Shown here in pieces: positions 1,157 to 64,000 of a DNA stretch of 64,000 nucleotides. The stretch's first letter is position 1; the number at the start of each line of letters is the position of its first letter. The position numbers and the translations under genes are program-made. The notes beneath the pieces are model-generated. The model saw only the letters and a program-made list of their open reading frames with translations, searched no databases and had not been told where the DNA came from. Source of the stretch: Beverwykella pulmonaria (taxonomy: Eukaryota > Ascomycota > Dothideomycetes > Pleosporales > Melanommataceae); the NCBI GenBank assembly GCA_001599595.1, contig BCHH01000002.1, forward strand, positions 3,139,341-3,203,340, written 5' to 3'.

Positions 1157-2583
1157 GGTGCTTGCGTGTGGAAAGAAGAAGGCATTGCTGGTCAGTACGA
1201 TGGATTATTCGGCGCGATTTATTGAGTCTTCTGCAAATTCGTGATGCGTACGTCAAGCTGAGGCGGTGCTAATCAGCCTTGCACGTGCATTAAAAGCCAA
1301 GGACATGCTAATGACTAAACGGCTAGTGGATATTTCCGGTGGCCGTTTCCGGCAAGACTTTTTCGTTCCATCCAGAGCCAACCTCAACCTCTAATGCCAC
1401 GTTCCATTCGTCAATCTCAATCGCTTCATCATCATGTTCAGCCCACTAGGTCCACTTGCGACTGCTCATGATTCACCATTCAGCCGAGCTTCTAGCCCCG
1501 GAAACATTCAGGCCAGCTCAAGCGGATGATTCGGATGCTTGACGGTGCCTGCGTTCTTGTTCAGGAAGATGGACGGCTTGCGAGAATAAACTGGGCATGT
1601 TACGGTAAGCTGCTCTCCTTGTTTCAGGCGTATCCGACCCGTCTGAAGGCCCTGTATTGTTCAACGCTGGGCCAGCCCGGGAAAGAGGTAGATGCTAGGA
1701 GCAAAACAACACCCTCTTGAAGCCCGTTCCCCAAATGCAACAAACGCGGGAGGATTTCCTCCCACGAGAAACTATCGCCAGTTGAGGTCTAGGGGCGTAT
1801 GAAGCGGCTGTTTCACCAAAGTAGTACAGTTTTCGCACAACTCCCATGTTTCCCGGACGCCTCCTATTCGCTAAGCGAGTCAGTTTCATCATCCGCAACA
1901 GGTACAGTTTCACCCCAAAGAGCGTTTCCCGCCGCGACAGATTCTAAGTTTGTGTTTTGCGCGGAGAAATCGCCATGTCCAACTGTCACCAGCACGTTCA
2001 TGGGACCACAGTGCCCGTGCTATCCTCGGGGAAGCTCTCCTAATTGCATATTTAGCCAAATTTGCTCAAGGATCTGATAACTAATTAAGCTCCAACGGGA
2101 AGCCCGCACCTCAACCAGATTGAGCTCTGGGAACTTACGAATGCTCATTTCGTTCGGCCTGCAACTGCTGTCAGCCTGCAGGTTGCACGACAGACGGGCC
2201 GACGTCTGGCACCTGTTGTTGACATATTGGGCCTGGCCAAAACGCTTTTTTCCCCATGAATGTGTTTGAGGTCTGCGCAACCGAACTACAACTGCACACC
2301 CTAGTGATCTATACTAGTTTTTCCAGATGGGGGCTACGATATCCCAGACAGGCAAAAAAGTATATATTGGAAGCTACGACGAGCTCCAATTTCCGGCTCT
2401 ATAGCAAACATCCCTGGGATAGCTTCACTATCGTCTGGTTCTTTTCATTTCTTTCCAACATTCGCTTCTCTTCTTCGGGCTCTGGTAGCTTCTCCCTTTC
2501 GCTATACATATTTGTCCTTGTCTCCGTCTTTCGACCAATCGACTTCCGCTTCTTCAAGTGCCATCACCACCGAAGACCTCGCC
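1157..2583. other. Divergent intergenic region
   Basis: This lies between the ankyrin-like gene (-) and the DUF3455 gene (+) and should carry both promoters. The right part has a TATA-like box and a long pyrimidine-rich tract (about 2440-2540) just upstream of the DUF3455 start. I see no further coding potential; the open frames are short and lack recognisable protein features. Confidence 0.6.
2361..2368 (+). promoter_or_regulatory. TATA-like box of DUF3455 gene
   Basis: The string TATATATT lies about 215 bp upstream of the ATG at 2584 and is followed by a CT-rich block (about 2440-2540). A TATA box followed by a pyrimidine tract is a common layout for highly expressed filamentous-fungal genes. 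The role is inferred from position only. Confidence 0.4.
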
Positions 2584-3261
2584 ATGTATTCGTCACTCCT
2601 TTTCGCGGGCCTCGCCCTCCCGCTCACTCTCGCTTTCCCCACTTTGAACGACCATTTCCGCCTCCCGGGTGTTCACCGGCCGCGTCAAGCGAACGGCACC
2701 GAAGGAAGCTGCAATCTTGCATCTCTCCCACAACCCGCCAACACCCTCACACCCCCCGGCGCCGACGTCTCTCTCGTTCTGATTGCCCTCGGCCACGGAA
2801 CGCAGAACTACTCTTGCGCCAGCGAAACCGCCACTCCCACTGCAATCGGGGCCGTAGCCCAACTCTTTAATGCATCGTGCGCCGTCGCCAGCAACTCCGA
2901 CAGCTTGGGCTCCATTGCAGAAGAGGCGGGTGCTATTGGCGCGCACTTCTTCGTGGATAACACCACGCCCGACTTTGACATCGTGGGTCTTGGCAATACG
3001 CAGGCTAAGAAGGTCGAATCGATGGCATCTCCCCAGGCTACCAGTGTGCCGTGGTTGAAGCTCGATGCACAGGCCCAAGGCACCACAAGCGCGGTCAAGA
3101 ACATATACCGTTTGGAGACGGCTGGTGGGGTTGCGCCCAAGGATTGCACGGGCCACGCGGCTGGGGATGTGGTTACGGTGGAGTACCAGGCGCAGTACTG
3201 GATCTATGCCATCACGGAGGTAGTTGAGGCTAGAAGGCGGAAGAGGAATGCTGGGTTGTAG
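2584..3261 (+). CDS. Secreted DUF3455 family protein
   Basis: Single-exon gene of 225 aa. The ATG at 2584 is in good context (gccATG) and starts a signal peptide (MYSSLLFAGLALPLTLAFP), so I prefer it to any upstream near-cognate codon in the same frame. The mature chain reads as a DUF3455 protein: an early PPGADVSLVLIALGHGTQNY segment, a central HFFVDNTTPDFDIVG segment, and a late VPWLKLDAQ...VKNIYRLETAGGVAP...VEYQAQYWIYA block. The family is widespread in ascomycetes, is often abundant in secretomes and is sometimes labelled malate-dehydrogenase-like, but its biochemical role is not established. There are two possible N-glycosylation sites near the N-terminus. The C-terminus is basic (EARRRKRNAGL), which is unusual for a secreted protein and may be trimmed. 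Confidence 0.85.
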   Translation: MYSSLLFAGLALPLTLAFPTLNDHFRLPGVHRPRQANGTEGSCNLASLPQPANTLTPPGADVSLVLIALGHGTQNYSCASETATPTAIGAVAQLFNASCAVASNSDSLGSIAEEAGAIGAHFFVDNTTPDFDIVGLGNTQAKKVESMASPQATSVPWLKLDAQAQGTTSAVKNIYRLETAGGVAPKDCTGHAAGDVVTVEYQAQYWIYAITEVVEARRRKRNAGL

Positions 3262-57981: not shown

Positions 57982-59406
57982 ATGCCACGAAGGCTCTCAC
58001 TCCAAGACTACACTGTCGGATGGGTTTGCGCTCTGCCGGATGAGCTCGCCGCGGCAACTGGACTGTTGGACGAGGAGCATCAAGGCCACCCGAGCAATCC
58101 AAACGACAACAACCTGTACGCACTCGGTTGTATGAACGGCCACAATGTCGTCATTGCATGTCTTCCAGCAGGTCAGTTAGGAACGAACTCTGCGGCTACC
58201 GTTGCTTCCCATATGAGGTCAATGTTCACGTCGGTCCGGTTCGGCCTAATGGTAGGCATCGGCGGAGGAGTCCCAAGCGACGAGTTTGACATCCGGCTTG
58301 GGGATGTGGTGGTTAGTCAACCGCGTCTAGGGAACGGAGGAGTAATCCAGTATGACTTTGGAAAGACTGGACCAAGTGGATTCATGCGTACAGGTGCTCT
58401 CAATACACCACCAGCCCTCCTGCTTAGCGCAGTATCGACTTTACGAGCGAATCATTTACTAGACAAAAACAGCCTTTTACCCTACATTGACAAGATCGGT
58501 CGACGACATTTCACACGTACGGGTGCGGGACCAGACATTTTATTCGAGGCGACCTACAACCATGTTGGGGGAGCGACATGCGACCAATGCGACAAAAAAC
58601 GGACGATACAGCGAGAGGAACGGGAAAGTAGAGAAGTTGTGGTTCATTATGGTACGATAGCATCAGGCAACCAGGTTATGAAAGATGGTAATACCCGGGA
58701 TCGGTTGAACTCGGAGCTGGGTGGTGTTCTTTGCTTCGAAATGGAAGCTGCGGGACTGATGAACAGCTTCCCGTGCCTGGTGATCCGAGGCATCTGTGAC
58801 TATGCCGACTCCCACAAGAACAAAAAATGGCAGCCATACGCCGCAGCAGCTGCAGCAGCATACGGAAGAGCGCTTCTGTCTGTCATTCCTACGACAGAAG
58901 GAGCAGAAAGAGAGACAGCGAGAGAGCACGAGAGACAATTGACAGAAGGAGCAGAAAGAGAGACAGCGAGAGAGCACGAGAAACAATTGACAGGCGAGGT
59001 AAAATGGGAAAAGGTAATGGACAGTCGTTGGACAGATGATCGTTGTCTCAACTGCGGGTCTGAAGTGCACTGGGAGTACGAGTGTCCAAACAACTGTGGT
59101 AAATGTGCGACTATCTTTTCAATCCAAGCAACACTCCACTAATGACAATACAATTAGGTCTCTACCGAGGTCACAAAGCGTCAATATGTGAATTCCCAGT
59201 CCGTTGCATAGAGTGTGAGCCTTCACTTGGGTATAATGTAATGTGTTACTAACGTATTTCTACTCTAAGGCCGAAGACAAGGGCACATAGCTGAAGATTG
59301 TCCGGATCATCATCGCATGCAAGACTTTCAGCGAAGCTTTGGAGAAACTTTCAGCGACCCTCACAACTCAGACTCAGCTTGGTATTTGAATTTGGAGAGT
59401 ACATAG
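57982..59406 (+). CDS. Purine/uridine phosphorylase-like protein fused to CCHC zinc knuckles
   Basis: Exons 57982-59098, 59158-59214 and 59270-59406 encode 436 aa. Introns are 59 and 55 nt (GTAAAT...ATTAG, GTGAGC...CTAAG), and both interrupt Cys-rich codons but rejoin in frame. Residues about 10-300 are a nucleoside-phosphorylase-like domain (VGWVCALPDELAAA, GLMVGIGGGVP, RLGDVVVSQP, CFEMEAAGLMNSFPCLVIRGICDYADSHK), the type used as the N-terminal domain of many fungal NLRs. Next come two 16-residue repeats (305-336). The C-terminus carries CCHC knuckles: C355-x2-C-x4-H-x4-C368, a variant C372-x5-H378-x4-C383, and C389-x2-C-x4-H397-x4-C402. It has no NB-ARC. Cleavage of nucleosides or nucleotides plus RNA/DNA binding is plausible but inferred. 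It is near an NLR and a HeLo gene. Confidence 0.88.
58894..58989 (+). repeat. 2 x 48-bp coding tandem repeat
   Basis: Two 48-bp copies (58894-58941, 58942-58989) differ by one base (Arg to Lys) and encode TEGAERETAREHERQL twice. They link the phosphorylase-like domain to the zinc knuckles. Near-identity suggests a recent or unstable duplication. Confidence 0.92.
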
Positions 59407-60360
59407 TAGTGAAGCAGAGGAAGGCGGGCAGCTGTGGTTGGCGTTGGCCCAACTCCTCATCCACCTTCCCAACGAACACGACAGCATCGCCCCGCACAAT
59501 GTACACGCCAATCGGGGGAGCTCTCTTCACCATGGAGTCGTATGATGCGCTCAGTCATGTCCAATAGAACTAGTACATGGAAACGTCGGAGGCTACGAGT
59601 TGACCGAGACCTTCTTTATAAGTGATTAGACAAACGCGGATAGTAGTATACTGGGTAGCCTACTCTCGAGAAAAATCGTGAGGGACATCATGTCTGAACG
59701 ACGGCCGTCCGGCAGGCTGTGTACGGTGTGCTGAGGGACTAATAACCCACACACTTGTCTGAGGGTGATTTGGCCAACAGTGCAATCAAGGAATGTTAGG
59801 GAGGATGACGGTGGGTAGAGTGAGGGACTGAGTAGCCACAAGTCATTAGGATAAAGTATTCACATAGACGATGAGGCTAGAAGAAGATTGGCGGATTTGC
59901 AATACTTGCCTCGGCACGATCACGTGTTGATGCTGCTTTTGTAATAGGCAGCTGTAGCTGAGTGCCTTCTCGAATCCATCTAGGCCTGAGGCTGCGACAG
60001 CATCCTTCCGAAACTGCATTCCCCCACAGGGCTTCCTCATTACAAGGTTCACACAGTCCCACAATAATCAGCTTTCCCGTTGAACAGCCTGACGGCTTGC
60101 AAAATGATTATTGGCCGTTCTCTAAACGCAGGCTCTCGTTCCTGGTCCGACGCCTATTCCAAGGCCTCTGTGGCGCATATGATACGCTCCCAACGACTGC
60201 TGAATTTCTTATGGCATAGCTGTCTACAGTAGAACTGCCTACCTGTTAGCGGTGGCAAACAGCAAAGAGCTTTGGGATTATTGCCCCCTCTCCAGCTCGA
60301 AATCGCGATTCGGCCTCAAGAGCCCTCTTTTTTTCTCTCGATCTACTTGACGCGGTAGTA
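59407..60360. other. Convergent intergenic region
   Basis: 3' flanks of the phosphorylase-like (+) and HeLo (-) genes. Just after the stops at 59404-59412 the frame starting SEAEEGG and containing LALAQLLIHLPNEHDSIA is open. It could be a lost C-terminal part of the phosphorylase-like gene, but no splice path was found. The rest shows only short frames. Confidence 0.4.
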
Positions 60361-61338
60361 TCAACTAGCCTCACGTTCTTCTAGAGCACCTTCTTCAGCG
60401 TCCACTTTATGAGACCGACTTGCCAAAGTACCTTTCCTATACGAATGCATTCCCTGTGCCCCCTGCTGACCATAGAATACATGCCCGGCATGGGTGTACC
60501 CGCGGCCTTTGATGTCCATGCCATCGACCTTGAGGTTACCTGGCTTCACACCTGATCCAAAGCCGTACTCATCTCCAAATCGGTGGATTCCGTCGCCGTC
60601 AACTTTCACATGACGGAATTCGAGACGGTGTGACTCAATATGATCGGCAATTGCTCTGCTCAGAATCTCATCGTCTGTGTTCTTAAGCCTGTCGTCATCG
60701 TTCCTAAGTACTTCAACGAGGTCGAAGACACTTTCTTCCTGAAGGCCGCCGACTTCCTGTTTGCAAAGTTCCTCGAGCCGATGCTTGTTTGATGGGAAGA
60801 GTTCCACAAGATTGCTAATGAGGGTGACGAGTTCCTCAATCAAGGAGTCGAAGCTGTCTTTGCCATACAAAGCCCAAGTGATCTTCCGTGGCAAGCTGAG
60901 ATGCCTCTGCCGCTCCTTTGTAATCGATCTTAGAGACACAACAAGACTCTTCATCGAACTTTCAGACTCTAGTGTTTGCTCTTCATCCAAAGGCTCCAAA
61001 TCCATATCCTTGCCCTTCTTCTTCTTGCTGTCGGCATACTTGGCCGAAATAGCTTTTGCCTCTTCGAAAGCAGCCTCGATTTGGCCGAGCCATTCGTATG
61101 CCTTGATGATGTCCGCGTCTTTGTACGGGCCCTTAATGTCGACTTTGTCCTCTAGAAGACCGATGGGCTCGCCCCAACGGGTTAAGCGAACCTGGGCGGC
61201 TTCGAGCTTGGCCAGACAGAACCCGAAGTCCTTTCCGAAGCGTTGACCAAGGCGGATATATTGGAGGCAGTCCAGGGAGGATTTGAAGATGCCTGGAATG
61301 CCGGCAATTGCCAATGAGAGAGAGACCGGGTCAGTCAT
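60361..61338 (-). CDS. HeLo-domain protein (HET-s-type) with C-terminal repeat pair
   Basis: Single-exon 325-aa protein; ATG at 61338. Residues 1 to about 215 match the HeLo fold of HET-S/LopB-type proteins. They include a hydrophobic N-terminus (MTDPVSLSLAIAGIPGIF), then DCLQYIRLGQRFGKDFGFC, LEAAQVRLTRWGE and helices with SLRSITKERQRHL. In HET-S the N-terminal hydrophobic helix makes membrane pores after an amyloid C-terminus nucleates. Here the tail (about 241-290) contains two imperfect repeats: r1 HVKVDGDGIHRFGDEYGFG and r2 NLKVDGMDIKGRGYTHAGH. Both start with (V/L)KVDG, and the linker between them is short. This is the two-repeat layout of HET-s-like prion-forming domains, but the residues are divergent. 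It is divergently transcribed from the NLR at 62253. Role inferred: executioner of NLR-triggered cell death or incompatibility. Confidence 0.85.
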   Translation of the reverse strand: MTDPVSLSLAIAGIPGIFKSSLDCLQYIRLGQRFGKDFGFCLAKLEAAQVRLTRWGEPIGLLEDKVDIKGPYKDADIIKAYEWLGQIEAAFEEAKAISAKYADSKKKKGKDMDLEPLDEEQTLESESSMKSLVVSLRSITKERQRHLSLPRKITWALYGKDSFDSLIEELVTLISNLVELFPSNKHRLEELCKQEVGGLQEESVFDLVEVLRNDDDRLKNTDDEILSRAIADHIESHRLEFRHVKVDGDGIHRFGDEYGFGSGVKPGNLKVDGMDIKGRGYTHAGHVFYGQQGAQGMHSYRKGTLASRSHKVDAEEGALEEREAS

Positions 61339-62252
61339 CGTAATAGTGTGGTGGAGTAAAGGTGTGATATAGAAATCAGGAGGGTAGAGGGCGACTCGCA
61401 GCCATGCGATGTCCGAAGCAGCAAATGCACTGGGGGAGGACGATCCAAAGATCTCGGGTGACGTTCACAAGAAGATGCGGTTTGGCAGCAGACTATTGCA
61501 ATTTCGTTGTATCTAGCTACCAAAGGAAAGAAAGAGATGTGTGATGAAAGACGGAAGAATGTTCGTGATCTCGTTAGAGTGAGGGTCGTGTGTTCGGTGG
61601 TCGGTTATATGTGACAGAGGGTCCTCCGTGTGGGATCGGTGCGGCGTAGGGTGAGGTTTGCTAATTAGCTTGAGGGAATCAGGCTATCAAGCACTTGGAC
61701 AAGGCGGTGCTTGCGCCAACTTAGGGAAGGTGCTGGAAGCAAATGCTTGACTTATTGGTTTATCTCTTTCAAGCACCTGCCAATGTTTCTTGCAGCATTT
61801 GGTCTAGAATGCAGACCTTGGAGGGATGGAAAACTGACCGGTGCGCCGCAGTAAGCTAACCGCCAAGGTCATGTGGCGCAGCCTTTTAGCCTATGGGCCA
61901 ACCATCTCTCAATAGGCGCGCGAGGGCTGCCTGTGAAGGCAATGTGGAACTGAAGGACCTTAGTGATTAGCTCGGCTGAGCTCAGTCCTCCTTGCGGGTT
62001 TGATGCCCGCGCGATATGGCATGATAGACTGATACCGGTAGTTCGCTCATGTGTGAGATGATGAAGGTGGTAAAGCTGCAGCTGAGGGAAATCTGCCCGT
62101 GCTCCCGTCGCTTGAGCGACCCTGTTTTGTGACCAAGCGGCACCGAGCTCACGGTCGCGCTCATTGTCCCCGAACGACCGAGTCAGGCTCGATGATCAGC
62201 TTGATCTACGTGAAGCCGATCTTCTTCACCAGGGCCTTAGGCTGTGGGAGAA
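61339..62252. other. Shared divergent promoter region
   Basis: 0.9 kb between HeLo (-) and NLR (+) starts, so common control is possible. Open frames (for example around 62164-62250) run into the NLR's first exon in other frames. No other gene seen. Confidence 0.55.
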
Positions 62253-64000
62253 ATGGAAGACTCATCAGGGCATAGGTATAACAACGTCCGCGCAAGCGGA
62301 AACGCCCAAATTCATCTCGGAGATGTTTACCGTCTCAGTGCGCACAGGCTTGATGCCCTTTCTTTTCACAGAAAGCTAACCTAAACTCTAGATCACGGCC
62401 CATCTCAGCGCGACTACAAGGGCGACTACTCGTACTCTACCCTCCGTCTAGTGACGACTTTTGTACGACGGCCCGGCCTACGCGACAATCTACACAAGAA
62501 CCTTTCACGCGAAAGGACTCAGGACGATAGCCAGGGTTCGAGAGTCGTCGTTGTGTGGGGCTTAGGCGGAGCCGGCAAGTCGCAGCTTGTCCTAAGCTAT
62601 TTTCAGCAGCACCGACAGGAATACAGCGCGAGATTTTGGATCGAGGCAGGTCGGAAAGAAACTATCGAGCGTGACTTTCTGCAAGTCTACCGCCTCCTGT
62701 TTGACGTAACTGCGCATGGGGACGTGAAGATTGAAGATGCGGTGTTGGCAGTTAAAAACTGGTTCGTCAAGCGCGAAGGCAGGTGGCTAATTGTTTTTGA
62801 TGGCGCCGATGGCATTGATAGGATAGATGGGGACAAAGAGTCAGAAAATTACGTCGATATTCAGCACTTTATCCCAGATGCGCCCTTCGTTGATGTCGTC
62901 ATTACCACCCGAAGCTCAAGCGCCGAAGGACTGACGCCAGTAGAAGTGGTAAAGGTAGCCGAAATGGAACCCGTGGAGGCGACGACACTCTTCCAAAAGT
63001 GCTCAAAGATGGATTGGAAAGGGTATGACGAAGCTACGGTCAACGAAATCGTGGACGAGCTTGGCTACCTTGCGCTCGCAGTCAGCCTCTCTGGGACATA
63101 CGTATGCAAAACTGAACGGTTGAAACTGGATCTGCGAAAATACCTCGATGAATACCGAACGCGTCGAAAAGAGATACTTGCTCGGAAGCCTAACCGGCTC
63201 GTTCACCAGTACGGAGAGAGCGTTCTTACCACATGGGAGACAACGTTTGATGCAGTCGCCCAGCAGTGTGTTGAAGCATCAAAACTTCTGACGCTGCTGG
63301 GGTTCATTAACTTTGACGACATATTCATCGACCTTTTCCTACCTATGAGCCAAGACGATAACTATGAGTGGAATAAAGAGGACGGAGCAGGGGCTGCATG
63401 GCATAACGGAATATTCGGAGAGGCGAAACCCGACATGTATACGATCGAGGAAGGCTTTAGTGTCCTGCAGTCATATGGCCTTCTCCAATGGAAATCAGAA
63501 CAGAGCTATGCCATGCACAAGCTGGTGCACGCTTGGGCGTTTGATCGGCTTCACATCGACAATCAGCGCAGCTACGTGCTTCCGTCGATGTGTATCTTGT
63601 TCAACGCTATATCGAAAGCCGACCACACGCCTAAAGCGCGGCAACGACTCGTACCACACATTATGGCCAATTTTGAGGCAGTTTCTAAGGCGGATCCGCA
63701 AGGTTTGGATAGAGAAGTCGCCATTAAACTTTTCAACACAAGTGGCGACTTCCTCAGCGACGAGGGGCGTTGGGTAGAGGCCTATGGCATGCGAAGATTT
63801 GTGTACTTCAAGACGCTTGCAATGCGGGGAGATAATGATCGACGAACCATCTCGGCAATGGGCGACCTCGCAAACACTCTAGGCGAGCAAGGCAAGCTAG
63901 AGGAAGCTGCAGCGATGAAGAAGGAGGTGCTAGAGAAGAGGAGGCTGGTTCTTGGTGAAGAACATCCTGACACCATCTCGGCCATGAACAACCTCGCCAA
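62253..64000 (+). CDS. NB-ARC/TPR NLR with N-terminal amyloid-like motif (partial, 3' end beyond window)
   Basis: Exon 1 is 62253-62337 and exon 2 is 62392 onward to the window edge: 564 residues visible. The 54-nt intron has donor GTGCGC, branch GCTAACC and acceptor TCTAG. The 28-residue first exon contains NNVRASGNAQIHLGDVY (10-26), an Asn/Gly motif of the type found N-terminally in amyloid-signalling NLRs. The NB-ARC region follows: P-loop GLGGAGKS (85-92), kinase-2-like WLIVFDGADG, an RNBS-like VDVVITTRSSSA, ELGYLALAVSLSGTYV, and an MHD-like AMHKLVHAWAF. Then come TPR units of the kinesin-light-chain type (LGEQGKLEEAAAMKKEVLEK, LVLGEEHPDTISAMNNLA). The receptor probably oligomerises on ligand binding and passes the signal to a HeLo partner. 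The partner in the neighbouring gene is inferred. Confidence 0.88.

Follow-up and report, generated by a model that had tools for sequence, protein, structure and literature searches.

The closest described relatives of the locus reported here are fungal two-gene systems of the NWD2/HET-S type, in which adjacent genes encode a NOD-like receptor (NLR) with an N-terminal amyloid motif and a HeLo effector with related motifs at its C-terminus. The HET-s-related amyloid motif (HRAM) spans 21 amino acids, with Gly at position 19 (G19), generally hydrophobic residues at positions 5, 8, 10, 16 and 18, and a preference for Arg or Lys at position 15; the two effector repeats, r1 and r2, carry opposite charges and are separated by a loop of 6–18 residues (PMC4518210). 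As given in the main text of that survey, the sub-families are marked by N3 (HRAM1), Q3 (HRAM2), H3 (HRAM3), Q18 (HRAM4) and Q16 (HRAM5), with Arg/Lys at position 15 preferred in all; the features at positions 15 and 16 are general and not absolute, HRAM5 having Q16. The same source states that 82 of 90 receptor motifs (r0) fall in the sub-group of their cognate r1/r2 (its Table 2) and that the profile PF11558 matched only 38 of 155 HRAM proteins (PMC4518210). HELLF and HET-s share a backbone without cross-seeding, and the triggers are unknown for nearly all such systems (PMC7889193). Here we describe a HeLo effector gene and an NLR gene standing back to back at one end of a 64,000-nucleotide stretch (the window) of the genome of Beverwykella pulmonaria (Dothideomycetes; Pleosporales; contig BCHH01000002.1, positions 3,139,341 to 3,203,340). 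The pair is most probably a two-gene NWD2/HET-S-like amyloid signalling unit that would work by the mechanism proposed below.

The HeLo-NLR gene pair

A preliminary description, made from the letters of the window, had proposed that the NLR begins with a short exon encoding a motif ahead of its NB-ARC domain, and that the adjacent, divergently transcribed HeLo protein ends with a motif and a second, diverged copy. Both gene models bear this out: exon 1 of the NLR encodes r0 upstream of the NACHT/NB-ARC domain, and r1 and r2 lie in the HeLo protein where they had been placed (Table 1). In the PDB, the HeLo family profile found the HET-S/HET-s HeLo structures 2wvo, 2wvn and 2wvq (expect values, E, from 1.5e-35 to 1.5e-31, 2wvo being the best), and the AlphaFold2 model of the protein matched 2wvn in Foldseek (E 2e-8). 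A HeLo or HeLo-like domain is one of the features by which the HRAM superfamily is recognized, and the window effector has it. The NLR contains the strings GLGGAGKS and MHKLVH, which we take to be its P-loop and an MHD-like motif. The assignment to the NWD2/HET-S type also agrees with the preliminary description, and is based on the HeLo domain, the double pseudo-repeat with complementary charges and the single N-terminal motif on the adjacent NLR, all predicted from sequence.

Motifs of effector and receptor

The motif register was fixed by G19 and not by charge, and 22 residues were kept per motif. In this register r1 and r2 form 21-residue pseudo-repeats (aa 237–257 and 267–287) with 9 residues between them. 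Between r1 and r2, 62 charge pairs were opposite and 2 alike across 23 sequences, most strongly in the HET-s register; these homologues share ancestry and the counts are not independent. The charge comparison used 23 of 28 rows, including the window; P0018, P0020, P0026, P0023 and P0024 (the last two with a 2-residue insertion) were left out and P0025 was kept. Residue counts refer instead to 24 sequences, again including the window, from which P0018, P0020, P0025 (truncated) and P0026 (frame-shifted) were dropped.

G19 occurs in 24/24 r1 and 24/24 r2, H20 is invariant in r2, and positions 5, 8, 10 and 18 are hydrophobic as in other HRAMs, position 18 of r2 being mostly Ala (17/24). The preference at position 15 is absent, with Arg or Lys in none of the 24 r1 and none of the 24 r2; Ile (15/24 r1) and Tyr (14/24 r2) predominate. 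Nor is position 16 hydrophobic as a rule: Thr is found there in 10/24 r1 and 20/24 r2, and Thr, Asn or His in 19/24 r1. Position 17 is Arg in 18/24 r1 and His in 18/24 r2. The marks of HRAM1–5 are likewise missing: neither repeat has N3, Q3, Q16 or Q18, H3 occurs in 4/24 r1 only, and Leu occupies position 3 in 19/24 r1 and 11/24 r2, including L3 of the window. Pairwise identity among the 24 sequences averages 0.64 in the HeLo domain, 0.56 in r1, 0.58 in r2, 0.52 in the linker and 0.20 over the final 25 residues.

Because r1 and r2 lack both the features at positions 15 and 16 and the signature residues of HRAM1–5, an undescribed sub-type, judged by the main-text descriptions, is plausible, and the effector repeats look like one. 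At position 15 it appears to have mostly a hydrophobic or an aromatic residue and at position 16 Thr or another polar one, in place of Arg/Lys followed by a hydrophobic residue. To this extent one may well follow the earlier suggestion that the motifs are a new HRAM class or variant, the rank of class being only a proposal. A sixth HRAM sub-family, represented by these repeats in Pleosporales and Emericellopsis HeLo proteins, in which the effector's third strand is re-patterned (hydrophobic/aromatic 15, Thr 16) and the receptor motif is canonical, is a tentative idea and rather doubtful. In literature searches on HRAMs and on HeLo, amyloid and Pleosporales, no listed title seems to concern the present pair. 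The 2015 survey kept proteins of at most 310 amino acids (PMC4518210), a limit that would exclude the window HeLo protein (325) and that of Bipolaris (317), but not all relatives (P0010, 292).

AlphaFold2 predicts strands at positions 4–11 and 15–18 of both r1 and r2, and a tail of two rungs 30 residues apart (mean predicted local distance difference test score, pLDDT, about 80 for the single chain). In Foldseek, three of the five matches of the tail were HELLF/HET-s amyloids, none individually significant; the HELLF fibril 6eka ranked first, and the matches to 6eka and 2rnm are weak. Profile comparison, to which the preliminary description had pointed, did not place the motifs: neither PF11558 nor PF17046 (PP) nor PF17106 (sigma) matched them at E ≤ 10, and the latter two matched none of the window proteins at that threshold. 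PF11558 found one of the 29 members of alignment A2 (E 0.17); as a detector within the B. pulmonaria genome it gave no match at E ≤ 10, but was uninformative, the controls being equally silent. The two matches of the tail profile among PDB sequences were both dismissed as chance. Alignment A3 comprised 17 of the 24 tails, chosen to thin near-duplicates.

When 7,344 sequences were searched with an r0 profile from six NLRs of other species, aa 5–26 of the window NLR matched with E 1.4e-7, which puts one motif on the adjacent NLR. In the six frames of the 64 kb, a profile of r1 and r2 built without the window ranked the HeLo protein first and exon 1 of the NLR second (E 0.028; best domain 0.073). 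The preliminary description had seen a shared core, V(K/R)-x-G-x-IH-x-GD-x-Y, in both proteins. Aligned without gaps on G19, the NLR (VRASGNAQIHLGDVY) and the HeLo protein (VKVDGDGIHRFGDEY) do have V8, K/R9, G12, G19, D20 and Y22 in common, but the literal core fits neither of them; its IH is out of register by one residue, falling at positions 16–17 in the NLR and 15–16 in the HeLo protein. The window r0 has H3 and the canonical I16, and its charged residues are one of Asp/Glu/Lys (D20) and two Arg; NLR motifs are described as containing few Asp, Glu and Lys (PMC4518210). The r1 of a distant HeLo protein, P0148, bridges both motif styles, with GHR as in r0 and the R17-hydrophobic-G-D end as in r1. 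No other r0 was found in the 60 NLR-domain loci scanned (all 30 NB-ARC matches and 30 of 89 NACHT matches, some overlapping).

Table 1. Coordinates of the gene pair and its motifs in the window.
Feature	Position	Strand	Basis or remark
HeLo effector gene	61338..60361	minus	single exon, 325 aa, M at 61338, stop at 60361, intact frame
HeLo (prion-inhibition and propagation) domain, aa 9-202	60733..61314	minus	PF14479 E 6.4e-40
r1, first HET-s-related amyloid motif, HeLo aa 237-258 (HRLEFRHVKVDGDGIHRFGDEY)	60565..60630	minus	invariant G at position 19
r2, second, diverged motif, HeLo aa 267-288 (GNLKVDGMDIKGRGYTHAGHVF)	60475..60540	minus	same register, G19
Divergent intergenic region, 914 bp, between both start codons	61339..62252	.	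start-codon positions
NLR exon 1	62253..62337	+	start codon 62253; r0 profile match
r0, the one HET-s-related motif at the N-terminus of the NLR, aa 5-26 (SGHRYNNVRASGNAQIHLGDVY)	62265..62330	+	profile of r0 in six NLRs of other species; identically placed in Decorospora P0053, Lindgomyces P0028, P0030
NLR intron 1, 54 nt	62338..62391	+	GT..AG, splice sites chosen by eye; frame restored into exon 2
NLR exon 2	62392..64000	+	runs off the window; in L009 reaches 1,086 N, then further tetratricopeptide repeats (TPR)
NACHT/NB-ARC nucleotide-binding domain, NLR aa 72-268	62520..63110	+	PF05729 E 4.2e-8, PF00931 E 1.7e-6
TPR array, start	63846..64000	+	PF13374 E 2.1e-10; TPR resumes beyond the N run

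Relatives and genomic surroundings

The HeLo effector has 27 homologues at E ≤ 1e-3, which are 43–92% identical to it (Lentithecium 89%). Those named are from Lentithecium, Decorospora and Bipolaris, all Pleosporales, from Pyrenochaeta and from Emericellopsis (Hypocreales), and the others include metagenomic sequences. A wider profile search yielded 50 proteins, among which the distant members P0148–P0150 (one from Aspergillus niger) retain a similar repeat style. Two relatives from Emericellopsis cladophorae (P0017 and P0019) are 62–65% identical, which is unexpectedly close for Hypocreales when every other named relative whose taxonomy was checked belongs to Pleosporales; horizontal transfer is possible. 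Two cyanobacterial matches, obtained in a search of genome contigs for prokaryotic relatives, were rejected; they fall in a protein that, read by eye, resembles a pyridoxal phosphate-dependent decarboxylase and includes a WALYGKD string. No relatives were found among the viral contigs searched.

For the NLR, 120 of 331 homologues were listed, from proteins of at most 987 amino acids (1.75 times the query). In 70 of these the P-loop pattern is missing or precedes residue 60, so that a first exon could hardly be visible; in the remaining 50 it could. A clear r0 was recognized by eye in six of the 120 (P0028, P0030, P0053, P0083, P0130 and P0131, those used for the profile), and a weak one in P0136 (E 0.03) and P0146 (E 0.17). 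Among four relatives 67–78% identical to the window NLR, from the Pleosporales Lindgomyces and Decorospora, three have a clear r0, and the fourth is P0136. A co-conserved pair, of the kind that the preliminary description had proposed looking for, is probable in one relative: in Decorospora gaudefroyi the HeLo and NLR orthologues both sit on 7,386-bp contigs and are probably adjacent. The contigs of the 27 HeLo and the 120 listed NLR homologues, compared by eye, coincided nowhere else; as the NLR search covered proteins of at most 987 amino acids and 120 of 331 matches, this absence means nothing.

The NLR gene continues beyond the window. In L009, a run of 1,086 N (2042-3127) interrupts the TPR array, and the TPR units flanking it are 94.7% identical over 95 bp, like repeat arrays under concerted evolution. 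Directly after the TPR end, an open frame (L009 3896-4201, +) has a ZZ-like cysteine pattern (PF00569, E 0.16) and might be a further NLR exon. The whole pair is bracketed by a 261-bp direct repeat (window 59960-60220 and G000:C2:3208971-3209231, the latter being L009 7672-7932), whose two copies are 92% identical and about 9.7 kb apart; exactly these two were found in a search of the genome (45.6 Mb, 31 contigs). The segment between them may be an inserted or removable cassette, losable as a unit. A gene with a PNP_UDP_1 phosphorylase domain adjoins the pair (window 57985-59400, +); its C-terminal part has two probable introns (placed by eye) and cysteine/histidine knuckle-like stretches with weak zinc-knuckle matches (E 1.1 and 4.7). 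It was considered as a motif-linked effector and rejected, neither motif profile finding a further significant motif in the window. In the metagenomic protein P0102 (961 aa), 48% identical to the window NLR, an N-terminal PNP_UDP_1 domain is fused to NB-ARC-TPR, an architecture which suggests that this receptor family swaps effectors.

Interpretation and comparison with known systems

Several results weigh against an amyloid signalling unit, and part of them concern the effector tail. Its Foldseek matches have E 2.3 at best and template modelling scores of about 0.2; its sequence profile found no HET-s or HELLF entry in the PDB at E ≤ 10, and PF11558 (HET-s_218-289) did not match the window HeLo protein at the same threshold. 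The repeats are conserved little more than the linker, plain similarity between r1 and r2 had to be given up as evidence of repetition (the BLOSUM self-similarity of the window tail was matched by 205 of 300 shuffled tails), and the Decorospora HeLo model is partial and without the tail. The repeats could be a small beta-roll in a soluble monomer, or a partner binder, instead of an amyloid templating motif, and AlphaFold2 does predict their fold for a single chain at a mean pLDDT of about 80; nevertheless, we consider this very unlikely, since the HET-s and HELLF amyloids have the two-rung plan that is predicted here and a private fold leaves the related r0 on the neighbouring NLR unexplained. 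Hardly to be expected, too, is a non-killing, HET-s-like effector in a pair that signals or blocks without killing. The window protein has D23, as does the HET-s chain 2wvn (D23/P33), where the HET-S chain 2wvo has A23 (A23/H33), but its position 33 is Arg, neither the Pro of 2wvn nor the His of 2wvo, and R33 is nearly invariant across the family. P33 marks the non-killing HET-s; its absence fits an active killer and proves nothing.

The other adverse results concern the link between receptor and effector. Similarity of the window r0 to its own r1 and r2 is only moderate (a level reached by 46 and 10 of 5,000 shuffles; z 2.7 and 3.3), r1 is matched better by an unrelated r0, that of P0130 (reached by 15 of 5,000), and the r0 motifs of the Decorospora and Lindgomyces NLRs score still lower against the window r1 and r2. 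The r1 motifs of two distant HeLo proteins, P0156 (13/22 identical) and P0148 (9/22), are much more like the window r0, which has the canonical hydrophobic residue at position 16, where r1 and r2 of the window family mostly have Thr, Asn or His. Searched against all 7,344 sequences, the r0 profile did not match the HeLo protein at E ≤ 10, and the r1+r2 profile gave the window NLR only E 0.73 (best domain 2.8), still its best non-HeLo match, and no other NLR N-terminus at E ≤ 10, that of Decorospora included. From such differences one may argue that the HeLo tail, although truly an HRAM amyloid, is activated mainly by a different NLR or by none, and that the r0 next to it is of another sub-type and serves another effector. 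We regard this as unlikely: the genes are adjacent and divergent, their Decorospora orthologues both occupy contigs of 7,386 bp, the r1+r2 profile ranks this r0 second in the window, the NLR-domain loci scanned hold no further r0, and r1 of P0148 joins the two styles. That the resemblance between NLR and HeLo motifs is mere chance is scarcely credible, in spite of the modest pairwise similarity and the E value of 0.73, because both profiles found the motifs blind (r0 with E 1.4e-7, r1+r2 in the window with E 0.028), r0 and r1/r2 are conserved in orthologues, and the charges of r1 and r2 are paired. The closeness of r0 to r1 of other HeLo proteins and the failed cross-profile searches indicate that the resemblance is that of one motif superfamily and not a private match; we infer the link of this r0 to this HeLo protein mainly from adjacency, here and probably in Decorospora, and from r1 of P0148.

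For the two-gene signalling unit that we favour, the domains, the motif positions, the charge pairing of r1 and r2, the predicted two-rung fold and the adjacency were computed; ligand sensing, amyloid templating, membrane attack and cell death are proposed by analogy with the Podospora systems, following the NWD2/HET-S model (PMC5485727; PMC7889193). The TPR array of the NLR would sense a cue and the NACHT/NB-ARC domain would then oligomerise, gathering the N-terminal r0 motifs into beta-solenoid rungs. With these rungs as template, the r1-r2 tail may be converted in its turn, and the HeLo domain, released in this way, would damage the membrane and so bring about the death of the compartment.

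The HRAM sub-families amount to natural experiments on the determinants of amyloid cross-seeding. If the proposed sub-type is real, its re-patterned third strand, set against a receptor motif nearer to the canonical form, would be a test of the side chains responsible for seeding specificity, and the asymmetry could render the effector templatable by its receptor but slow to nucleate, whether alone or in the presence of other HRAMs. With this pair, HeLo proteins of more than 310 amino acids would join the mapped HRAMs, and a receptor-effector pair of Pleosporales type would be added. We find it convincing as a new HRAM-type pair, which looks like a fungal cell-death switch of a known type; its effector motif is unusual, and it is of specialist interest and unsurprising in kind.

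Among the described systems, HELLP/PNT1 likewise sets an NB-ARC-TPR receptor beside a cell-death effector (PMC7889193), but its PP motif is single and pseudo-palindromic, and PF17046 has no match at E ≤ 10 among the window proteins. HRAM2 and HRAM3 pairs occur in overlapping fungal groups (Cochliobolus sativus is among the species in Table 1 of PMC4518210) and have the same gene plan, and the window r0 has H3, the HRAM3 mark; r1 and r2 of the window family differ from both in the frequency of L3 (19/24 and 11/24) and in having no Q3. FNT1/HELLF of P. anserina resembles the present pair in its two pseudo-repeats beside an NLR, and its fibril 6eka is the top-ranked, though weak, fold match of the tail. 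Its effector, called HRAM5 in PMC7889193 (PMC4518210 lists the HeLo-like protein of Podospora as HRAM4), has a HeLo-like domain, whereas the window protein is a true HeLo protein whose r1 and r2 have neither Q16 nor Q18. NWD2/HET-S of P. anserina (HRAM1) likewise has divergent adjacent genes (PMC3321046), an effector with the HeLo fold and two repeats, and an NLR with one N-terminal repeat. It differs in that NWD2 carries WD repeats where the window NLR carries TPR, in that r1 and r2 of the window family are without N3, Arg/Lys at position 15 and, in most sequences, a hydrophobic residue at position 16, and in that the window protein has no PF11558 match.

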